Below are positions 16,377 to 62,260 of a DNA stretch of 64,000 bases, in pieces. The position numbers were made by a program, and so were the translations under genes. Numbering within the stretch: the first letter of the stretch is position 1; the number at the start of each line of letters is the position of its first letter. The stretch covers positions 124,001-188,000 of the forward strand of contig JAHLKC010000020.1 of NCBI GenBank assembly GCA_025449115.1, in the 5' to 3' direction. The notes below the pieces were generated by a model. That model saw nothing but the letters and a program-made list of their open reading frames with translations. It did no database searches and was not told the DNA's origin. This DNA comes from Chytridium lagenaria (Eukaryota; Chytridiomycota; Chytridiomycetes; Chytridiales; Chytridiaceae).

Positions 16377-17981
16377 TCAGAACCCAGGCCGTAATTTGGA
16401 CATATGTTGTTCAAATAGCGCTAAAGCCTCTGTCCGCAACGGTTCCTTACACGCCCGCACCTGTTCCAAGCACTCTTGTGTAAACCCTTCATTCCTATTC
16501 TCCAACAAAAACTGAACTACCCCGAAAGCATTTACAAACTTTTCTCGCCGACCTTCAATAAAATTCCCAGCTGGGAGATTTCCTATCGATATGTTCATTC
16601 CCTGCTCTCTATTGATTCTGTCCATCTTGATGGTGTCGTTTAAACTATTGTTCATTGAAGATGCCATTTGAATGGCCATGTACAACGCTTGAGTTGTCGC
16701 GCCGTCCGCACGGTTGGTATGGAGAAACTTGACTACATGGAGATGACCGTTTCGTGCAGCCATATCGAGCGCTGCCGGACCGACGTTCAAAATGATATCA
16801 AGACCGTGAAGGTATTTCACGATATCGAGGTGCCCTCCCAAACAAGCTGACGTGAAAGCGCTGTTCATGGTTTCCAATGGAAAGGAATCTTGATGGTTCT
16901 CGTACAAGTATTTAACCACATCTAGCTTCCCGCCATCAACGGCTTCCAATATTGCAACAGCAGTGCAGCCTTCATGACGGTTTTTGAACAGAAACTGAAC
17001 GACCTCCAACGACTCCCTAGAGGCATGGTCGATTGCATCCGGCGTACAGCCTTCCTCACGAAACTCATGGAGAAACTTCACCACATCAATGTGTCCACCT
17101 GCCGCCGCTCTATTCATGGCGCGTTTTGAACAGCCCTCGTTACGTTCATTGTGAAGAAACTTGACGACATCCAGATGTCCATTTGCCGCAGCTCTGTCCA
17201 TAGCGGTTTTCGTGCAACCCTCTTTACGGTTATCATGAAGATACCGAAGCACCTCTAAATGACCCCTTGCACACGCCTGATCCATCGCTTCAGTCGTGCA
17301 GCCTCCTTTACAGTTCTCATGAAGGAATTTTACAACCTCCAACTTCCCTTCTCCAGCAGCAGTATCTATAGCATTAGCGTCAAATTTAGTCACTCCACGC
17401 CCATGAAGCAACTGGAAAATCTCTAAACGGCCGTTTTTGGCAGCGTAGTATGTCGCTTGCTCCGTCCACTTTTCTGGATGAAGATCGAGTAAGAGGTTTA
17501 CCACTTCCAGTGGCGCGAGGTCAGCTGCGTTGACCAGGTGGCGCTCGCTGACTTCAGTTTCAGGTCGGACGTTGAGGAGGAGACGGATAAAGTTGGGTTT
17601 TCCCTGAACTATGGCGACCCCCAGGTCATGTTGAATCCAGATCCCGTCGTCCGGCCTAAACTTGTGAAGCCATGAGACAACGGCAAAACTCAAGTTACAG
17701 AGGATGATATCTTTTCGTTTTTTGTATGGCATGCTGTCTAGAAATGAAGGGGCATAGGGTTTTGGGGATGTGGGGAACTTGGTGAGATGCATGGAGGCTG
17801 GGAATTGGATTGATGTGCATCGATTGAAAGCGGTGAAATGGTCGACGTCGTCGGAAAGGTGCAGGCCAAGTATGAGGGATTCCATCTTAATGGAGAGTTC
17901 AAAGTCATCTGCAAGGATTAACGTTCGTACTTGGGCAATGGCAGGTAGACGAAGGAACAGGTGGTCGGTGAGTGACGACAT
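16377..17981 (-). CDS. Intact ankyrin-repeat protein with conserved N-terminal module
   Basis: An uninterrupted 534-residue protein. Start is the ATG at 17981 (MSSLTDHLFLRLPAIAQVRT). Residues 1-60 contain an F-box-like helix pair with LILADDFELSIKMESLIL, shared with two other loci in the window. From about residue 130 to the end there are at least ten ankyrin units of 30-33 residues, several with the signature NR-x-EGCT-x-xAMD-xAAxxGHLDVVKFL. Examples are DRAAANGHLDVVKFLHNERN and DMAARNGHLHVVKFLHTNRA. The repeats are of the type expanded in chytrids, oomycetes and amoebae. Ankyrin repeats bind partner proteins; the N-terminal helix suggests an adaptor such as a ligase receptor, which is inference. 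No intron is needed. It is the reference copy for the broken paralogues at 12760-13740 and 38122-39059. Confidence 0.85.
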   Translation of the reverse strand: MSSLTDHLFLRLPAIAQVRTLILADDFELSIKMESLILGLHLSDDVDHFTAFNRCTSIQFPASMHLTKFPTSPKPYAPSFLDSMPYKKRKDIILCNLSFAVVSWLHKFRPDDGIWIQHDLGVAIVQGKPNFIRLLLNVRPETEVSERHLVNAADLAPLEVVNLLLDLHPEKWTEQATYYAAKNGRLEIFQLLHGRGVTKFDANAIDTAAGEGKLEVVKFLHENCKGGCTTEAMDQACARGHLEVLRYLHDNRKEGCTKTAMDRAAANGHLDVVKFLHNERNEGCSKRAMNRAAAGGHIDVVKFLHEFREEGCTPDAIDHASRESLEVVQFLFKNRHEGCTAVAILEAVDGGKLDVVKYLYENHQDSFPLETMNSAFTSACLGGHLDIVKYLHGLDIILNVGPAALDMAARNGHLHVVKFLHTNRADGATTQALYMAIQMASSMNNSLNDTIKMDRINREQGMNISIGNLPAGNFIEGRREKFVNAFGVVQFLLENRNEGFTQECLEQVRACKEPLRTEALALFEQHMSKLRPGF

Positions 17982-47527: not shown

Positions 47528-48203
47528 AGAATATTCCCCTTTGCCTTTTTTTTTGATTTTGTTTTTATTTTTGTTTTGGTTTTTAGTTTTGGTTTTTCCT
47601 TTATATCAGGTTATCCTTTGTCCTTGGTTGTATTTATGAGCCGTAATAATCATATATGTGATTCCATATAAAAGGTGTAATTTCATGCAGTTTCAAAAGC
47701 CTGAATACCCTGAGCAACCACATGAATTTAGCATCTCTCGTGATGCAGCCGCGTTACATTTTAATATTTCTGGGATTCGTCTTAATCATATCGTGTCTCG
47801 GCATCTTTCCTATGAGCCTTCTTTTTATAACATGATAGCAAAGTCTTGCAGTGAGCGACTGAAAAATTACATGTAAAAGGGCATGACATGAATACGTCAA
47901 ATTACTAAAATGATACAGACAGCTTGGAGTGGATGGAAATGGTGTCGAAAAATGAATGGAAGGGTAAGAAGAAATAGACTCAACAAAACTGAGATAGGTG
48001 AAGATACTAGACACCCTTTCAGGGTAAAGAATTGTTTGTAGATAGCAGCAAAACATATGACCGATATAAAAATAAAATGTAAAGCAAAAAGAGGTGACAG
48101 AAGCAATACATTAAACAACTAGTCGCCAAGGATCACACCAAGACCTTTAGATAAATTTAACTTGATGATACTGTGTTCCTGATTCAGGAACCCTATAGTT
48201 GTT
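47528..48203. other. Intergenic, T-rich 3' region
   Basis: The first part is a strongly T-rich 3' region with TTTTTGTTTTG runs. The rest is AT-rich with no supported gene. Confidence 0.5.
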
Positions 48204-48375
48204 TCAGTTTTGCATGGTGTGTAAACTGTACCATGTCGCGAAGCTCGAGGTCAAACTGTCGGCCATTATATCAAAAAACGTCTCCGACCTCGCCGACTTT
48301 CGACGGAATGCCTGCTTTCTTCCAAACGTTTCAAACGTTTCAAGCGTTTCGGCATTAAATATACAACGCTTCATA

Positions 48376-49958
48376 TTATCTTTCAAAAACGATTGCTTTT
48401 GTAAACCTTTTGGTAGCCAAGGTTTTCGATCTTCCATACTCCCCATTCATCTGTTTTTCGTTGTGACCGAAAATCTTAAAGTACTTGATCAACGGCTTGT
48501 CCGACATAATCCCCCTGCCCCGGAGAATATGCTCCGCTATCAAGCCGTACAAGTATAGCTGAAATACATAGATGACTTTCAATACCATGTCCGCGAGGTT
48601 TGATTTTTTCCGACTAGTTGTTTTGACGTCCATGATGAAATATTCCCCGTGTCCTGAAAGCATGTGGTTAGCGAATGAGTTTAAAGGAAAACTTACTGGA
48701 TCAATCATCAACATGTCACTTATTCCTCTTACTACGAGGTTTTCTGAATTGTATTGAACCCTCACAGAGGGATGACACAATTTCATTTCAATTCGGCACC
48801 TGACTGACCGAAGGATTTAACCAGCATTGTGTTGAGTCTTTTTGTAATACAAAATATTAGTTAATAAAAAAGAGTGTCGTGAAGCTTGCCTTAGCAGAGG
48901 TTGTTTCACATGATGCTGCAATCTGGAAATATCGTAATAAGGCCTCAGAATTTGATTGAACCTAGATTTAAAACAGTAAACCGAAAAGAATCCAGAGTCT
49001 AAAGTAATGTTACCCTAGTCTCATTATACAATTCCTTAATGTTGACGCCGTCAATTTTAAAGACATGGTTAGGAGCCCACATTCTTCTTGCACATGTTGT
49101 GACCGATAAATATCTATGAAAGACATTATAAATAATCTCAACTGGCAACTCCACTGACTTCAAAACCTCGCGCTGCTCATCTGAGTTTCTTTCGGGAGAG
49201 CAGTTTGCCTGTATGATATATGTAAATAAACATGCCGCTTGAAATTTAGAAGTCTGTGATCAACTCACTCATTTTTCTCCTCTAAGACCTCTCTTTCATC
49301 AGTATGATCTATCGCTTTGGGTGAAGGAGGTGGAGACTGCGGCCGATGAATGTTCCTGGCGTTCAGGTCATCCTCCGGGAGAGCGGTTTGCCTGTATGAT
49401 GTAAATAAACATGCCGCTTGAAATTTAGAAGTCTGTGATCAACTCACTCATTTTTCTCCTCTAAGACCTCTCTTTCATCAGTATGATCTATCGCTTTGGG
49501 TGAAGGAGGTGGAGACTCCGGCCGATGAATGTTCCTGGCGTTCAGCTCATCCTCCGGGAGAGCAGTTTGCCTGTATGATGTAAATAAACATGCCGCTTGA
49601 AATTTAGAAGTCTGTGATCAACTCACTCATTTTTCTCCTCTAAGACCTCTTTCATCAGTATGATCTATCGCTTTGGGTGAAGGAGGTGGAGACTGCGGCC
49701 GATGAATGTTCCTGGCGTTCAGGTCATCCTCCGGGAGAGCGGTTTGCCTGTATGATGTAAATAAACATGCCGCTTGAAATTTAAAAGTCTGTGATCAACT
49801 CACTCATTTTTCTTCTCTAAGACCTCATCTGCCTCTTTGGGTGAAGGAGGTGGAGACTCCAGCCGATGACCGGCACCTGGTCTTGAGGACACCGATGTGT
49901 CCCTGTGTGGGCTGAGAAGCGCTGGCAAAAGGGGCCGATCTTCGAAGGGAGTGTCCAT
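48376..49958 (-). CDS. PD-(D/E)XK (RecB/Exo5-like) nuclease-like protein with repeated linker
   Basis: Exons on the minus strand: 49804-49958, 49627-49747, 49448-49570, 49269-49391, 49014-49208, 48890-48961 (GC donor) and a last part from about 48830 to 48376. Exon 1 begins MDTPFEDRPLLPALLSPHRD. Exons 2-4 are near-identical copies encoding QTALPEDDLNARNIHRPQSP plus a charged end. Exon 5 leads into SVELPVEIIYNVFHRYLSVT. The C-terminal part has LVVRGISDMLMIDP, then EYFIMDVKTTSRKK and YVFQLYLYGLIAEHI. The pattern G-x-x-D ... D-x-K and the Gln-Leu-Tyr helix fit a PD-(D/E)XK core of the Exo5/Cas4/RecB type. Several single-base breaks occur (exon 2 lacks two bases, exon 5 one G, near 48795 one A, near 48705 one base). 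An extra C-terminal segment may continue to 48204 in another frame. The nuclease call is by motif only. Confidence 0.6.
49209..49803. repeat. Tandem duplication of an exon plus its intron
   Basis: Three full units and a partial fourth, with period 177-183 bases, lie head to tail. Each has one 121-123-base exon and one 56-60-base intron of the nuclease-like gene. Exon copies are 49627-49747, 49448-49570 and 49269-49391; the start of exon 5 (49208 down) and the end of exon 1 (49804 up) carry partial copies. Introns all begin GTGAGTTGATCAC and end TACATCATACAG or a close variant. Exon phase (2 to 2) is preserved, so each 123-base copy adds 41 residues. The copy 49627-49747 lacks one CT dinucleotide. 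Confidence 0.9.
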
Positions 49959-50269: not shown

Positions 50270-51771
50270 TCACGCCGTAGGTGTCGAGTCATTGCGGTTT
50301 TTAAACGCCTTGTGGCTGTCTACAAATGCTTTCAGTAGCCTTAAACTTCTTTGATCACCCATCGTAGCCATGCTGAATTAGAATACCGATTAGTAACAAA
50401 GCCTATGCTCGAGAATAGTGAAGGGAACACTTACCCCATGGAGTTTGGCACGTAGCTAAACGCAATGCCGTGCTCCAGGTTCCAATACACCAACGACCCC
50501 CAACCCCGCCCCACCCAATCCACTCCATATCCGGACAACAAGGAAACCTCACTCGATATCCCCAACCTCCGACCGTAAACGTCAACTTCCGTCGCACAAC
50601 CACATCCATCTGTTCATCCAACGGCATCAACGCACGTCTCGCCGTCTCCTCCGAAAATATTACCGCATCCCCAAACCTCCCACGATTCGCCAACAATGCA
50701 GCCATCTTTGCGAGACTCTTTGCATTGGACATGCCGCTGAAACTGGGGCCTTCGTTGGCCCACATTTCGCGACGGTTGTGGCTTAACGGCCAGGGGGCGA
50801 GGACGCGGGGGGCGGAGGAACGGAGGGCTCGGTGGGTTATGGTAAGGGGATTGATGACAGCGCGTACGACCGGGGATGGGGGGTTACGTTGGAGCAGGTT
50901 TGGAGTTAGGATTTTCACGAGGGATGGGAGAGCCGGTGGAGAGATGAGGTGCGAAATTCGATGCTCGAGGTCAACGGGAAGACCAATGTAAAACTCGACG
51001 CCGAGCAATGGCATGATTTCGTGTCGAAGTATCTGTTTATTTGTTAGATATATGAGGTTCTTTCACAATAAGCAACAATCCATCTTACTTGACCGATAGT
51101 CCTCCCCTCAGGATGCACCCTCCTCACAATCTCGTTTAAATACCATCCCCTCGTAATCCCCGCGTATCCCTGAATGCTCTTTCCTTCAAAATTATGGGGT
51201 TGAGCAGCAAGCATCCTTGCAAGGCGATCGAGATCCCCAATTTCCTCTAATGTCGGGCCGCGAGTCAAGTAAGTGACTCCAGCACGATGCCCAAGCAGAT
51301 CCTTGACAGATACATTTTCCTTATTGCCTTGCGCGAATTCAGGCCAAAGCGTTGAAATCTTATCTTCGTAGCTGAGGAGCTTCTTGTCAACAAGGTAGGC
51401 GGTAACCAGCCCTTCCTATTTTAGCACTTTGTTAGAAATTGTAAGAAATAGCTATACATTCTTACCACAACTTTTGAGCTAGAAAACACAGTCTGAAGGG
51501 TATCCGATGAATATGGTTTTGATAATTGATGATCAGTATACCCACCATACAAGTCAACTACTTTTTCCTCCCCAACTAAGTGGAGATTAGTAAGATAAGC
51601 AGAAAGAACGTAAAAGAAGTGATTCATACCATACGCTGCAAACCCAGCCCCAACCTCCGTCCCCTCATCAAAATTCCTCTTGAACGCTCTCAAAACTTCC
51701 TCAAACCCCTCCGATACTGTCCCACCCACCGGCCAACTAGGACATCCTACATTTACCAAATTACACGTCAT
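50270..51771 (-). CDS. Class C beta-lactamase-like serine hydrolase
   Basis: Member of the beta-lactamase/EstB-like serine hydrolase family (COG1680 type), usually acting on esters or peptides in eukaryotes. Exons are 51630-51771, 51466-51575, 51089-51415, 50435-51032 and 50270-50372, about 428 residues. Segments in order: WPVGGTVSEGFEEVLRAFKR, KVVDLYGGYTDHQ, VFSSSKVVEGLVTAYLVDKK (S-x-x-K with nucleophile Ser and general-base Lys), DLLGHRAGVTYLTR, YAGITRGWYLNEIVRRVHPE (second motif Tyr), FSGMSNAKSLAKMAALLANR, and GWGGVGGSLVYWNLEHGIAF near the C-terminus. One G is missing in the run at 50497-50501. The last exon uses an acceptor with a TACTAAT branch site and encodes ATMGDQRSLRLLKAFVDS. No signal peptide is evident from the chosen ATG at 51771; an upstream first exon is possible. 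Confidence 0.88.
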
Positions 51772-52804
51772 CGGCACTCTCGTCTTCCCCGTCCACATCC
51801 TCACATTCGCGACCAAAAAAAAACGACATCCAAAGCATGAGTCTCGGGAACCTTTTTATATGTGGGACGGGTGGTGATACCCGCGACGCGCGACCAGCAC
51901 GTGAGGATCGGATGCTGCAACGGGAGATGGTGGAGGTACGGGGGGATGGACGGGCTGTGGAGTAACGGGAGGCGGTAGACGTGCGAGGGGAACGGGAGCG
52001 AGAGGGGGGTAAAGGGAGGAGGTCAGGGACGTATAGACGATCGTCGATGAGGGGGAGAGAGAGTTGAGGGAGGAAGCGCGATGTAGGGTGAGAGGTATGA
52101 GGTTCAAGCATTGTTTTGCGGCGGATACGGATACTTGTGGATTGTGAAGCTGACTTTGTTGCGGGAACATTTGTGCATGAGGCGTCGACTAAATGGACGG
52201 GATAGACATTGTCACTCTGCTTTCTCTGGTTGTGTTGGTGCTGTCGATGCCATCATTTTTGGATGTCTTGCTGCCCCGGCAAAGTGTATCGGCGATGTTG
52301 GATAGAGAGGTAGATGGTACAAGCATGATGTTCCGTTACTCCCGTGTGAAGAATCCTACAATGACGTGGATTGTTGTAGCCGGGATGCGTACTTATACGG
52401 CTCCCTGTATAGAAGATCAGCCGTGGAGCTAAAAAAAACGAATGACTTAGTTGTTGTTGTCGTTACTTCTCTCGTGAGCTTAACGCCTTCCGCACATGAA
52501 CGTCAACGTGATTGGGGTCTGGCGCGTTCCAAATATAGAATGGCAGAAGACACATATTCTTACATCATTCTTCAAGGTTTTATTTTCGCCGAAAGAAAAT
52601 AAAAAAAAATACATGCAAAAGAGCACTGAGAGAAGGGGCACATCGGAAAGATCGGAAACAAGATATGAACAGATGTAGAGGTGGGTGGGAGGTGGTGAGT
52701 ATTATGCGATAGCGTAAAGCATGACTGTCAAAAAAACCCTCGGGGAGCGTGACATAGAATATCAGCTGAGCGAACGGCAAATTAAGTGTCATCGAAGTCA
52801 GGTC
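51772..52804. other. Intergenic, possible upstream exon
   Basis: Contains a Pro-rich minus-strand open frame (51856-52170) that could be a first exon or leader of the beta-lactamase-like gene, but no splice pair is convincing. The rest, up to the SUMO stop at 52805, shows nothing coding. Confidence 0.35.
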
Positions 52805-53626: not shown

Positions 53627-54094
53627 ATGATGGGTATCGACGAGTTTATTGAAAAGACAGCGTTTATTATGATGATAAATTGCTTTGCATCCGCATTGGA
53701 TCTTAATTCTGGATCTGTTAACACTGCTGGTCGATTCAACGACGAAAAGGGCATAAAAAACCTATTAGACGTTGCAAGGGATTCAAATGGATGCGGTGGT
53801 TCTAGTGATGAATTGCATTTTTGTTTGACGAAGAAATCATGTCATTTCAAAGAACCTGGATTTAGGAACGATGAGGGATTGGACATACCGGTAGAAATCT
53901 CTGATGAGTATGGAGTTTGCTACTTATCAGCGCTTTTGCTCTTTATGTGGATAGGGATGGCGTCCAAAGACAGATCCAGCACTGATGCCAATGCGCAATC
54001 ATGGTATATCTATCCCTTTGCGAATCCTAGGAAAGCGTCACTAGAAAGCACGTTCTTTTTCCATATAGAAAAGCAAGGGAATTATAACTGCTAA
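53627..54094 (+). CDS. Hypothetical 155-codon open frame
   Basis: An uninterrupted frame opening MMGIDEFIEKTAFIMMINCF and containing NDEKGIKNLLDVARDSNGCG, DELHFCLTKKSCHFKEPGFR and a hydrophobic stretch YLSALLLFMWIGMA. It has four cysteines and no recognised domain. It starts 123 bases from the divergent SUMO start. It could be a real small gene or a relic; composition is compatible with coding. Confidence 0.35.
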   Translation: MMGIDEFIEKTAFIMMINCFASALDLNSGSVNTAGRFNDEKGIKNLLDVARDSNGCGGSSDELHFCLTKKSCHFKEPGFRNDEGLDIPVEISDEYGVCYLSALLLFMWIGMASKDRSSTDANAQSWYIYPFANPRKASLESTFFFHIEKQGNYNC

Positions 54095-55010
54095 AGTACG
54101 GTGCAAGGCTTCCGAACAGCCGTCTTGTACTTCTGCCATGATTATTCTCTTTTTAAAGGTTTTTACACAATAAGTAGCAAATGTTGATCGATTCTCGATG
54201 CAGCCATTCTGTCCAGTTTAAGATCCATGCTTGGATTACAATGGTGTGGGATACAGATGCATATGCCGTCAGAAAGAAAGGTTCCCCGATCAGACAGAGG
54301 AGGATGAGGAGGATGGTGAGCTCGAGGCTTGTTTGTTTTTGGTTCGATGCCTTTGCAGCCTCCGCGATTAAAGATTTCACATCGGAATGCGTATGCCAAA
54401 TTCTGTGCATCAAGAGCGCTATCTAACGTTACTGGCATCTCACCGCCAGTGACGACCGGTCGATGTCCATCTCCGTTCTCAAGAAGGCTGACATAAGACT
54501 ATATATAGGCGGAGTTGAAAAAAGTAGCGTGGCAAAGATCAGTTTTGGACAAGTCCAAATTCGCTTGCTGCTGGACTCCGATTCCTTCGTCTGACATCGC
54601 TGCCTGACCTTTGCCACCCATTTCGTCTCCGCTGGAGTCTCAATTAAGAGCACAAGGCCTCTCTTCCAGAAGATATTTACGCCGGAGTTGGACTTTTTAT
54701 TGATTTCACAACCAACTCCGACGACCTGCTCTCCTGAGGCAAAAGAGAAGAAGGCTGTTTTTCTTCAACAAAATACCTCATCGGATCCTATACAACTCCT
54801 TCTTAGGACCTCAAGACAAAGGAAACTTTTAGCAAGCGCTTCAAAACGCATCAGCATCGTTGCATTCTTGACGGAACAGACCTCATTGCTCTTTTTGATC
54901 CACCTGCAACAACAAACGGATCGTTCGATTCCTACTTAAGAGGTTCGCATTACTCAGCCATCAGTGATCGTAGCCTTACCCATCTTCTTTATACAAAGTA
55001 GTCTTTATTC
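54095..55010. other. Upstream region of the F-box gene
   Basis: Short open frames on both strands, none with a domain. The last few hundred bases are probably the promoter and leader of the gene at 55011. Confidence 0.4.
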
Positions 55011-57448
55011 ATGATCCGCCGCCAACCGCGGAAACCTCGCATCCTCCCAGTGGAGGTGTGGGTTCGCATCTTCTCTCATCTCGACGTGACTTCTCCCCGC
55101 AACTTTACTCAAGCATGCCGATGGTTCAAGCTCATTGCCGATGACCCGCACAGCAGGTGTGCATGGTTTATCAACAAGTATGGAAAGTCCTTGGGTCTTT
55201 TGCATGCATTTAGGAATCAGCGGATGGTCCTCACACCAGAGGTAGGATGCAGTCACCTTTACCTTTTGACTTCTTTTTTCCTAATACCGTCCTAGGTTGG
55301 AAAACTCATGGTCGCCTCTGGATGTGGTGTACCGCGGTTCTTGGTGCAATGGGTGGATAAGGAGTATCATCGACCTGATCGCACGAGGAAGTCGGTTTCC
55401 GCTGCATTGTTTGTGTTCTTTGTAAACGCTGGGTTCATGCACTACGGAGCGAATGCGGACTTTAAGGAAGATGTAAGTCGGATTTTTTGCGGAGATGAGA
55501 GGAGGTCTGATACGATTTTTTTAGGATGTTGCACGGTTTGAAGATGCGTGTACAGCCAGAGTACGGCTGTCCCAGATACTGTGGATACCATACGGTCATT
55601 GATTGAGTCATTCAAGTTTGTCCCGGTTAGAGGATTCGGATCTCCTATTGACGAAACGGTTTATGTGAGCTTCTCCCCGAAATTCTTTGAGAACTTATGA
55701 CTAATACTACTTTAAAACGATAGCTCGTCTCTAAAATTGACCTCAAACTTGTCCTCGGATTTATCAAGAACGGCCTCGATCTTGCATCTGTAAACGACAT
55801 GGTCATGGAACGGGTCCTTTGGCGCTCCGACGTGTCTGACACCCTCGTCCAATCCTACCTTGCCGTCGGTTTCCAACTTTCCGCCATGGCCATCAAAAAG
55901 GGTCTTCAGATGGCACGTCCCAGTTCTCTTGAGGTCTTGAGAAATCGTGTGTCTGCTCCACTCCTCCAGAAACTTGCGGAGGAGACGGTATTTGACATGT
56001 TTGGGCCAAGCGTTCGGGGTTGGAATTTCACCCCTGAGGCTCTCGACTTTTTGATGGCTGCGTTTCCGATCTCTGAAGAGGTCATGGAGCATGCCATTTT
56101 TAGATTACCAGGTGCACCAGCGGATTTGCCAGACTCGTTCCCGGCTACTAGGTGTTATATGAAGGCAAATCCGTGCCCGGCTTGGAGGTGGATTTTGAGA
56201 ACGTATGGTCCGTCACATAGGTTTACAATGGCTTGCTTTGATGGTATGTGGTGTATCTATCGTTTATTGTGAATCCTTTATGTATTATTCTAATACTTTT
56301 TACGTTGCAGACGCATTGAGTCGTGCTGCTGCTGAGCGTGACCTACACGCTCTCACGACGTCATATTGAGGCTGGTGTTCAGTTTCGCCCTAGACACGTC
56401 AAAATCCTCGCCTGCCGTGTCCTTCACCGTGATATGACAGCCAACGCCCTCCATCTCCTTCAAGTCATGCGTATCCAGGTCACGGCTCTGTATCGTGATG
56501 TTATTAACGGTCCCCAACCCATACCCACACTTCCCGGCTCCTACGTCAACACTCCATCAACCCCTAATACTTCCTCATACCTCGCCACCCCACCTTCATC
56601 TCCCTCCTCACCTCTGCGGCCTCCCAACTCGACGCTACCCCCACCGGCCCCACCTACGCTGACCTTCAACTATGGCTGAAAAACTCCGCGAAGAAATCAC
56701 CGAAAATGAAGAATGGGATCACCGCATGCGCACCACCCAACTTGAGGGTGGTCCCCGTGGCGCGCTACCGCATCTCCCGTGCCCCGAAGACGCTACCCAA
56801 TTCCTCGAAGAAGCCAAAGAATTTGTCTCAGACCTTTCTCCCCACCCCCTCCGGCGCCTTAAAATCTAAACAAGGAAACGGGCGATTTCGGGCAAGCGTG
56901 GTGGTGGGAGGGTTAAGCGGAGGAAATGGGAGATTGAGTCTTGAGAGGAACGCCATGTCAGGTGGCCCAGCATCACCTGGGATTTCTAGACCCATTGCTT
57001 CAATGGGGAGACGTCAACGCGGTATTGTGAGAAGGAATTCAGCACCTGTTGCACCTACAACTCCAACCGCTGGAACCTCTGCTCAAAATCTTGTTGTCAC
57101 CGCTTCCACCACCACGCAAACAAATGTACCCGAAGCTGCTATCGCGCCTGCTGCTGAGGCTACTGATGCAGATGATGAGGACAGTGATACACCGGCAACG
57201 GGTAGTGATGATGTTATGCGGAGCAGACTCAACCGATTGCAGATGATGCTACACAACAACCTACTGGGCCACCTCCTACTGGGACCATGTTTAGACGGCA
57301 TTCAAGAGGAGGCTCGTTACCACCAGCTACCTCGAGACCGTTTGAGGGGATCGTTCGGCGATATCATCTTGGTGGAGCACGACAGTTGCTGGTGGGGGTG
57401 GGTCGAGAGGACCTCATCATCCATGGGATGGGAGGACCGCGCCATTAA
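55011..57448 (+). CDS. Large F-box protein
   Basis: Exons are 55011-55241, 55296-55472, 55525-55664, 55724-56243 and 56311-57448, all GT..AG. An N-terminal F-box (ILPVEVWVRIFSHLDVTSPR, then QACRWFKLIAD) should bind Skp1. The next 500 residues are helical (VASGCGVPRFLVQWVDKEYH, KSVSAALFVFFVNAGFMHYG, KIDLKLVLGFIKNGLDLASV, WNFTPEALDFLMAAFPISEE). Later come a conserved-looking acidic segment (REEITENEEWDHRMRTTQLE, GGPRGALPHLPCPEDATQFL) and a Ser/Thr/Pro-rich tail ending FRRHSRGGSLPPATSRPFEG, then GPRH. Frame changes occur near 55570, 56355, 56655, 56685 (one A missing) and 56865. The architecture matches large chytrid-type F-box proteins without ankyrin repeats. The substrate is unknown. Confidence 0.65.
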
Positions 57449-58318: not shown

Positions 58319-59163
58319 CCAACGACGAAAAATACCTTCAAATCCTTGAGAAAATATTCTATTCATTTCATCCGTCGTCGCCTCAATCAAGATATGGTTT
58401 GTTGGAGAGCAAAGAAGAAAGAAAGAAAGCGGAAAGTCCACCAACGGCCTTATCTTAGATGCAAGACCCTTCAACTTTTTTTTCATACTTCTTCTTCATG
58501 TAAAACGAAGGCATTAAATGTTAATCAAAATCAACCCTTAAGTTCGTGTCAGGCAAAGAGCGTTACTTACCAGCATATGCGCAGAAAACTCTCGACCCTT
58601 GTTTATCTCATCTGAAGTTAATACGCGAAAATCAAAAAATTACAAAAAACCAAAGAGAGCTGAAAATTCAGCCACCATTCATTGCACGTTTCTGGATATC
58701 AACACTTCAAGCTACTTCACGCAATTCAGAATTTTAAGAAAAAAACAAAAACGCAAGTCCGTTGCCGACCAACCTTTCTGATAACCGTAAGCCTCCACAA
58801 CTTTTAGCACTTATGAAGAATCTTTAAATGGTAACATGTTGATCGTCATTAGTTTGTTTGTCACCTGTTCGTATGTCTTGAAAGATTTAAACACATTTCA
58901 ACTACGACGAATATATAAAGTCTAGAGCTTTTGAAGTCATGGTATCTAAGAAAAAATTACCGACGGTATTCTCTATAACCAAACGCCGCATTCTCCCGCA
59001 ATGTTCACTACATTTTCTGAATTTGGGCCACATTCAAAACACGCATCGGTATTCAACATCCAAAAATCGTCGAACGCCCAAAAAAACAAACCTCGAACAT
59101 GTTTTAGAGCGACTTCATATAAAAATCCGCGTCACCCTCGGGTCAGCGCGTCAGGGTCCCGCT

Positions 59164-59235
59164 CCCCAGGGTCCTGCACCCTGGGACGTCGCTCCAAGCA
59201 CCCTAAATCACCTCCCCAGGGTCCTGAACCCTGTG
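59164..59235. repeat. Direct repeat with perfect hairpin
   Basis: CCCAGGGT and ACCCTGGG (59165-59185) form 8-base perfect arms around a 5-base loop. A second, less perfect copy (CCAGGGTCCTGAACCCTG) starts near 59216, followed by a similar GTGGCGTC/GGGACGTC trailer. Confidence 0.75.
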
Positions 59236-60679
59236 GCGTCTCTCCGGTGTCTACCGCACCAAAGACCTTCTCACAACTTTCAGAGAAACACGATTCCACA
59301 AAGCATAACAACTTTACACCACTTTAAAAGTTATACTTCAACTTCCCAAGGTTTTATCATTAGTACAAAAATCATGAAGTCGCTCTCCGGAACGTCGCGT
59401 CATCGAATTGATCTAGAAGACACCAGTAAAGCTTCCGCTCACATCTTCACATCAAGTTCTACCTTTTCAAAAAACATCTACCAAAAACAAAGCCTTTGGC
59501 CACTCACTTAACAACGCCCCAAAGTCTGCATTAATTCAAGTGACGATTTCCTATTTTTTGTAAACAAAATCCAAACTTATTATTTTGAATTGCCTAGCTT
59601 TCGCAAGGTTTCGAGAACAATCAAAGTATATACCCACTCCACATTCTTTGCATGCAAAAAACCCTACTTTGTAAACATAATATTAGTCAAATAAAACCGT
59701 GAACTAAACTTTATCCCCATTCGAGACCTTATGATTTCAAAACCCCCCCCTATGGATATCAGCATAATTCTGCTTACCTGATTCTACAGCCCTCTAAAAA
59801 CTACAAAATAAAAAAGAAAGCTACCTCGTCAATAAAAGTAAGATCATCATACTCCAACACGTTATTCCGTCCTTAAACGCTAGATCCAGGTCCTAAAACT
59901 CGCGTTCGTGAAAATTAAATACCTTACCATTTATATCCAGCAGTGAAGCGTTAAACCTCAACTGCTCAACAAAGAAACTTGCTGTTGCGATAGTGGAATC
60001 TCATGCCACATTCGAACCATTCCATATATTCATCAACTCTTTTCTGACCCTATTTAGTTAGAGTCCAGAGTGAGCTTCACCGTTCATCTGACTCCAAACT
60101 TGAAGGGCATTGCATGATATCTTCATATGCTGATAAAAATCGAGTGAGCTTTTGATAGGCATAAATAGTATAATACCATAGCACAATCCACGTCTGATTC
60201 CATTCGTATTTATAAAAAATCACAAAAACACGAATGATAATAAGCAATCGTGTGTTTGCCGTGAAGCGCTTCAGTCTTGAACATAAAGTTGGTCAGCACA
60301 TTCAACGATATACGGTGCAACACACTCATAGTCGTGATGCTATATGCAAAATTGAAATGGACGGATCCGAAATCGTCTGTCCGTTTTAAATCTTAAACTA
60401 CTTTATTGGTTCTCCTGTAGTGGCATTTCTTGGCGATACCTGTCTATGAATCCTGACATCCTTTATCTCCATTCCCGTAACAAAGTTGTTCCTAGTTCTT
60501 GACCTCCTCGCTAAGCACTATCAATACCGCAACATAGTCTATGATGCCAGGGTTAGCAGATAAGTGAATAAAATTAAGATGGAAGGAGGGGAGGAGCCAC
60601 TCAAAGAGCGATCAAGAACAAAGTAATCGGAAAGAAGAACAGGAAAACAAAGAGCACCTCAGATTTCATCCAGACTTTG

Positions 60680-61142
60680 ACAAGCACGGGTGCATATAAC
60701 GCAAGGAAGGACTGATGATCACCATCAACTCAGCCAATTTGTAACCCATCACTTACCCTTTCCCGTCATTCGTACTCGATCCTACAAAGCAACCCTGTCA
60801 ACATAAACCGTAACGAGGATAAAAAAAGGAGAGCACATATGCAAACACGAGTGCATATAACGCAAGGAAGGATGATAATCATCATCAACTCACCCGATCC
60901 CTAACCCATCACTCACCCTTCCCCGTCATTCCCACAGAGCAACCCTGTCAACAAAAACCGGAACGGAGATGAAAAATGGAGAGAAAATCTTGTCCGCATA
61001 TGTACAAACACGAAGGAGTGATGATCAACATCAACTCACCCGATCCCTAACCCATCACTCACCCTTCCTCGTCATTCGTACTCGATCCCAGAAAGCAACC
61101 CTGTCAACATAAACCGGAACGGAGATGAGAAATGGAGAGAAA
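60680..61142. repeat. Three-unit tandem repeat, about 160 bases each
   Basis: Units begin near 60680, 60841 and 61008. All share GATGATCA..ATCAACTCA, CCCATCACTCACCCTTCC, CGTCATTC and CAACCCTGTCAACA..AACCG with a few substitutions. Unit 2 lacks the TCGTACTCGATCC piece present in units 1 and 3. They are noncoding. Confidence 0.85.
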
Positions 61143-62260
61143 ACCTTATCCTCACATAAATATAGAATAATTAATTCCATGTTGACATCTTTGGCGTCCA
61201 AAGATTAACAAACAATGTTTGTTTACAAATTTTCTCGTTCCGTCTTGCGTTTTAATCGAACAAAACCCGTTCCTTCCTATCCCTGCAGAAAAGAGGCTAT
61301 CCATGCCCATGAAGCAGTCTATTGGTGGCATCCTAGACGATTTAGAACGTCCTTTGTGGCAAAATTGGGGGGTCGAGGGATGAGGTAAGGGATAAAGGGT
61401 TGGAAGGTTTATTAGCTTTCAATAAGATTTCGAGTTAAGCAGCTCCATGACAATGCAATCAGACAAGGTAAGGCTGTATCCCTTCAGCTACTGGTCTTGA
61501 GTATCGTGGAGAAAGGAAAGGGGGAAAAGAAGAGGGGTTTGAAGCAAAAACGGGGACAAATTAAGAAGGGTTTAGAGGGGAGAACGACGATAAACGAGTA
61601 CTATAAACGCGATTGAATGATGGAAGCAGATGGAGGATGACAAAAAGAGGATAGAGATGATGCAAGTGAAGGAGTTGGAGAGGGAGGAGGTATGCGGGGA
61701 CTTTTTACATTGAAAATTCAAGGTCGGTGCTTTTCAAACCTTTCCATATCGTTCGCCAATGCTCATTGTAAAGCATTTATTCGTTCGAATTCCTTTGATA
61801 GCACTTTGGGGTTTGGTAAGATGTTGTAGATTAATAAAGGAGGGGAAAAGTGCTGAAAGCGGTTAGGTTTTGGTGCTATCGAGGAATCATTGTGAGCTTT
61901 AGCGTCATCCTTACATTAGCTCTGTCAAATTGAAGCCCCCGTCATCGTCAAGTCGAAAAGAAGTTTACCTCGATATTCTAAACTTGAAATTACGTTTTAA
62001 TTTAACATGATCCTCCCCCTTAAAAAGCCGACTCAAGCTCGACAAAAAAGATTGCTCGATAGCGCGAACTGTGAAACTATACTATACGCGCGCGCGTGCA
62101 GAATTATAAAGCAGGCTCATGCTTTAGGATATAACTTTCAGATGGTTGAGAGGGGATATGATGAAAGTGGTTACTGAAGCAAAGAGTCTTTTCTAGTGTG
62201 TAGTGTGTATTGTCTTTCAGTAGTAGCTCGGTTTGATTGGATATACCTTGTTTGGTCAAG

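Follow-up and report, generated by a model that had tools for sequence, protein, structure and literature searches.

A probable intron-containing tandem repeat in a nuclease-like gene of Chytridium lagenaria differs in unit number between two assembled gene copies

Intron gain via repeat expansion has been described for the gene CNN00420 of Cryptococcus neoformans, where, in the part of the article that deals with this gene, the repeats are made up of exon ends and a full intron, the introns are near-identical and the last intron carries extra 3′ sequence (Sharpton et al. 2008; PMC2395259). The same part of the article gives a unit of ~107 nt, the number of which varies between related genomes and strains, with introns supported by expressed sequence tags (ESTs) and a sequence checked by resequencing (PMC2395259). 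As told in the corresponding section of this source, intron gain has also been attributed to repeat duplication in TOUCH3 of Arabidopsis, while the FLO genes of yeast contain intragenic repeats, possibly of at least 100 bases, which are variable in number (PMC2395259). A tandem array is located on the minus strand of contig C20 of the chytrid Chytridium lagenaria, inside one predicted nuclease gene, at positions 49209-49803 of a 64,000 nucleotide stretch (C20:124001-188000; hereafter the window). We consider it likely that this array represents an intron-containing coding tandem repeat, with a unit of ~179 bp, that lies within the 5′ portion of a PD-(D/E)XK-like gene. The array is a further case of the process already described in CNN00420.

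As far as CNN00420 is covered in the part of the source cited above, the Chytridium array matches it in the make-up of its unit, the identity of its introns, the extra bases in the last intron and the variable number of units. It differs in its unit length of 177-179 nt, in that the variation occurs between two contigs of one assembly and is known here from genomic sequence alone, and in that it is found in a chytrid and precedes a nuclease-like domain. In TOUCH3, again as summarised there, the gain was inferred between paralogues, whereas the Chytridium case concerns near-identical, probably allelic copies. To our knowledge, the repeats of the yeast FLO genes contain no intron within the unit.

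At least three near-identical tandem copies of an exon and its intron within a single gene had been proposed in the initial annotation of the window, and these are borne out by Tandem Repeats Finder, which recovered one strong array at this locus (positions 49193-49826; Period: 179; 3.5 copies; Matches: 96%; Score: 1176), and by the alignment of the exons and introns at 49209-49803. An ungapped repeat comparison returned three 180-nt copies sharing 98-100% identity. The array in the window comprises three full exons of 121 or 123 bases and four introns of 56 or 60 bases (Table 1). All seven array introns, on C20 and on a second contig, C220, start with GTGAGT and end with ATACAG, and they differ by 0-2 substitutions per 56 bases, with the last intron of each contig being four bases longer. 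The symmetric exon phase (2 to 2) and the gain of 41 residues per copy, as originally claimed, hold for the 123-base exons but fail for the 121-base exon W2, and the window frame is broken. Searches of the same genome (41.9 Mb; 356 contigs) revealed no match to the array sequence beyond the C20 locus and C220. When the 60-base intron was used as query, 7/7 matches fell within the two arrays, although strongly diverged copies could escape such a search.

The second contig is collinear with C20:171459-213764 over the 40,000 bases read, out of its total of 40,698, bar one larger length difference. From this collinearity, C220 is probably the other haplotype or allele rather than a recent large duplication, and the presumed ploidy of the strain is likewise deduced from the two contigs only. 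Its array contains two full repeat exons (C2 and C3) and three introns, and alignment against the window places one whole extra unit of 177 bases in the latter. The number of repeat units differs between the two assembled gene copies, with three full exons in one and two in the other, and an allelic copy number difference presumes that both contigs are correct and allelic. The near-identity of the introns and this difference in exon number agree with the earlier suggestion of a recent expansion with variable copy number.

The larger length difference mentioned above is located at window positions 58390-61035, where ~2.6 kb in the window corresponds to ~0.3 kb in C220. A second tandem array is present at positions 60706-61156 (Period: 146-156; 2.9 copies; 77-78%), the minus-strand units of which contain GTGAGT and TTGACAG motifs and no clear long frame. 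A single short match to it is found in C220 (C220:11150-11256), and it seemingly also differs between the haplotypes.

Comparison of the individual repeat exons indicates that W3 is identical to C3, while W2 and W4 have three common variants that are absent from W3, C2 and C3, and C2 has variants of its own. Two of the three W2/W4 sites are readable in a flanking partial exon and both show the W3 type, and the W2/W4 type therefore looks derived. As the derived type is found on both sides of the older W3, at least one exchange or conversion event would be required beyond a single duplication of a neighbouring copy, which suggests exchange or conversion within the array. These variants also bear on the view that the one-unit difference between the contigs is an assembly artefact and that the true copy number is equal on both. 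The assembly contains many local errors, and arrays of near-identical units are easily collapsed or expanded in assembly, but the combination of variants in W2 and W4 does not occur in C220, C2 is distinguished by its own variants, and the array, at ~630 bases, is short relative to long reads, should such reads have been used. An artefact is thus a rather improbable source of the difference. The intron-plus-exon units of the window differ by 1-4 substitutions per ~179 bases, gaps aside, while C20 and C220, outside of a stretch without substitutions, differ at 160 of 8,099 window bases (2.0%). The divergence among units is thus similar to that between the contigs, so that either the units date from around the time at which the two copies diverged, or conversion has homogenised them.

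The exons on either side of the array echo complementary parts of the repeat exon. Using the C220 exons, the 3′ end of exon 1 aligns with positions 43-77 (34/35 bases) and 101-123 (22/23 bases) of the repeat exon, while the post-array exon aligns with its positions 1-16 (16/16 bases), in accordance with the partial copies that had been reported in the outer exons. Furthermore, on both contigs n full repeat exons are accompanied by n+1 introns. The repeat exon thus appears to be a fusion in which the start of the downstream exon is joined to the end of exon 1, which would leave the intron as the sole element that is whole in every unit. Because both outer exons echo complementary parts of the repeat exon, the unit is better read as an intron with two flanking exon ends than as the complete exon and intron of the initial annotation, a description that the exon echoes and the n+1 introns per n exons do not favor.

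An old 123-base exon copied whole, that is, a complete exon-intron duplication, would explain why four out of five full copies, over both contigs, are 123 bases long with the same ends, the fifth differing by two bases. The outer exons, however, hold complementary parts of the unit, there is one more intron than there are full exons, and no 123-base exon with the limits of the repeat was seen by eye in the model of the paralogous gene BC829DRAFT_422647, while the searches yielded no orthologue from another species. We regard this origin as unlikely, and it would be wrong about the origin only, as later growth by whole units looks alike once one full copy exists. Repeated insertion of an introner-like element or other mobile intron would likewise produce several near-identical introns in one gene. 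It is, however, extremely improbable here: the intron matches in this genome are confined to two allelic arrays, with the caveat on diverged copies given above, and exonic sequence repeats along with the intron.

A unit made up of an intron and two exon ends could have arisen in a few steps. The ancestral gene would have had a single phase-2 intron at this position, as the paralogue on contig C172 seems to have, where the exon before the first intron ends in ...DENDE and is followed by GTGAGT. The own-genome searches gave no match in this paralogue for the array DNA or for the encoded linker. The tandem duplication of a segment that reached from exon 1 into the following exon would then have created an additional exon within the gene. 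This exon would combine the two exon ends, with a copy of the same intron on either side, and, at 123 bases of exonic sequence, it would have kept the frame. Near-identical units may subsequently have become misaligned, with unequal exchange, slippage or conversion altering their number.

The gene model predicted on C220 comprises seven exons (1203 bases including the stop codon) and encodes 400 residues with no internal stop; its introns are of the GT-AG type, except for one with a GC donor. Reading through array intron 1 of C220 meets an immediate stop, and a long protein from the array therefore requires splicing. In the window, exon 1 and W2 (155 + 121 = 276 bases) lead, as assembled, to an in-frame TGA that forms the last codon of W2, and at six further exonic sites a single base is missing relative to C220. 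On these grounds, the window copy could be a real pseudo-allele in which the array expanded without constraint, with C220 as the working allele, as all six exonic single-base gaps are losses in the window, W2 lacks a further two bases and C220 is open over 400 codons. However, the comparison of C20 and C220 over positions 53916-56757, perhaps a recently homogenised stretch, reveals 18 gaps of 1-3 bases (window shorter in 12 and longer in six) and no substitutions. At this rate of 6.3 gaps per kb, 7.6 gaps would be expected over 1203 exonic bases, against six observed, and none of the 27 substitutions in the C220 codons creates a stop. As the substitution-free stretch still holds 18 gaps, the frame breaks in the window are most likely consensus errors for the most part, rather than mutations, and a pseudogene is not implied; we consider a pseudo-allele unlikely. 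Reading frames deduced from this assembly should be backed by another contig or by reads, given that even a neighbouring stretch without substitutions has ~6 gaps per kb.

The 27 substitutions comprise 16 nonsynonymous and 11 synonymous changes, against a neutral expectation of 21.3/27 nonsynonymous (P = 0.016). In the nuclease part, 23 substitutions fall in the 500-base bin from position 48459, many of which are intronic or grouped in short clusters.

Several points weigh against a coding, spliced repeat of this make-up. The frame of the window copy is broken as assembled, the splicing of the array is predicted from its genomic sequence, and the copy number rests on two assembled contigs, with the allelic status of C220 taken from collinearity. 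The signal of selection depends on one pairwise alignment and, once clustered differences (picked by eye) are removed, eight nonsynonymous and six synonymous changes are left (P = 0.056). Repeat-exon positions 17-42 are without a clear source in either flanking exon, and the first duplication can therefore not be fully rebuilt, while the resemblance of exon 1 to the paralogue is weak (e-value: 0.005). Finally, the only deposited model found for the gene, BC829DRAFT_386530, has its start beyond the array and does not include it. Such an omission would be expected if the frame breaks misled the model, and a separate deposited model may exist for the 5′ part of the gene.

Downstream of the array, the C220 product matches the PF12705 family over residues 201-289 (PDDEXK_1; Bitscore: 25; cut-off: 22). 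Protein P0001, which derives from the contig of the window and is counted together with the C220 query as one gene, scores 23.2 bits, the domain of the paralogue alone 22.7 bits and whole P0002 21.3 bits, the last being below the cut-off. In members of the PD-(D/E)XK superfamily the D and DxK residues have a catalytic role, while QxxxY is typical of the RecB-like members. Domain residues D96 and D111-x-K113 are invariant in the three same-species sequences, and Q134-xxx-Y138 is also kept in the paralogue, the domain of which shares 36% identity with that of the gene under study. A PF12705 search of the C. lagenaria genome gave no matches, while the control was positive in 12 of 14 genomes, which counts against a strong domain match; the division of the gene into exons may explain this miss. 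The sole paralogue found (L026; C172:40578-40865 and flanks) is BC829DRAFT_422647, which has a possible coiled-coil reading after its first intron that is omitted by the deposited model. An AlphaFold model of the paralogue, built from a two-sequence input, has a mean predicted local distance difference test (pLDDT) score of 34, too low for the model to be of use.

No relatives outside C. lagenaria were found in the protein, viral and prokaryotic collections searched. The 400 amino acid protein recovered none at an e-value of ≤ 0.001 among 7985 candidates scored, where the linker perhaps drew the search words, while a search with the 256 amino acid domain region recovered only P0001 among 176 candidates at an e-value of ≤ 1. 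An alignment-based search returned only P0001 and P0002, both from C. lagenaria, among 6780 candidates at an e-value of ≤ 0.1. The viral and prokaryotic contigs contained 46 and 120 pattern matches, respectively, none of which was confirmed, and a PDB sequence search returned nothing below an e-value of 0.1.

With each unit the predicted protein gains 41 Pro-rich, acidic residues, QTALPEDELNARNIHRPESPPPSPKAIDHTDEREVLEEKNE, and the position of this linker ahead of a nuclease-like domain, as noticed in the initial annotation, is upheld by the PF12705 match downstream of the array. The repeats probably form a flexible, Pro-rich and acidic spacer or tether before the predicted nuclease-like domain. 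Because the donors and acceptors are near-identical and the exons phase-symmetric, the skipping of any full 123-base copy would keep the frame. As such, the array might act as a live length dial, in which skipping of full copies could yield a ladder of proteins with 0-3 spacers from the two alleles, a proposal that we consider doubtful. If the frame shift in W2 is real, skipping of the 121-base copy would bypass it.

The nuclease-like gene is adjoined by a beta-lactamase-like gene (window positions 50403-51855, minus strand), of which 51047-51415 matches PF00144 (Bitscore: 52.5). The 3′ part of this gene reads differently on C20 and C220, due to small gaps. As a frame test this 3′ part was set aside as too weak alone, with the C220 reading scoring 16 bits against PF00144 (cut-off: 27) and two window readings giving no score. 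A further tandem repeat is present at positions 17065-17241 (Period: 84; 2.1 copies; 74%), which is ankyrin-like by eye only. The counterpart in C220 of the last exon region of the nuclease-like gene stops at C220:737.

Table 1. Predicted features of the repeat-containing nuclease-like gene, in window positions.
Feature	Position	Strand	Remarks
Exon 1	49804..49958	-	155 nt; likely ATG at 49958, predicted start
Exon 1, 3′ part, TCATCGGC to donor	within 49804..49958	-	Partial repeat-exon copy
Array intron 1	49748..49803	-	56 nt; GTGAGT...ATACAG
Repeat exon W2	49627..49747	-	121 nt; two bases short relative to the other four full copies
Array intron 2	49571..49626	-	56 nt
Repeat exon W3	49448..49570	-	123 nt; exactly as C3 of C220
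Array intron 3	49392..49447	-	56 nt; same sequence as intron 2
Repeat exon W4	49269..49391	-	123 nt; three variants common with W2, absent from W3, C2 and C3
Array intron 4	49209..49268	-	60 nt; four added bases near acceptor, as in last array intron of C220
Post-array exon	49014..49208	-	First 16 bases match repeat-exon start; one base shorter than in C220; ends by eye
33-nt exon	48890..48922	-	Followed by a GC-AG type intron, predicted from the C220 model; ends by eye
Exon with GISDMLMID part of nuclease-like domain	48697..48803	-	Ends by eye
Last exon region, DVKTT and QxxxY of nuclease-like domain	48193..48653	-	Window frame broken; ends by eye

The array in C. lagenaria provides a compact chytrid case in which exons and introns would have been gained together by repeat expansion, and in which their number still differs between probable haplotypes. 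It suggests that, where a tandem duplication includes one intron, the ends of two exons can be combined into a new exon that is spliced from the outset, without any earlier exon of this type being required.
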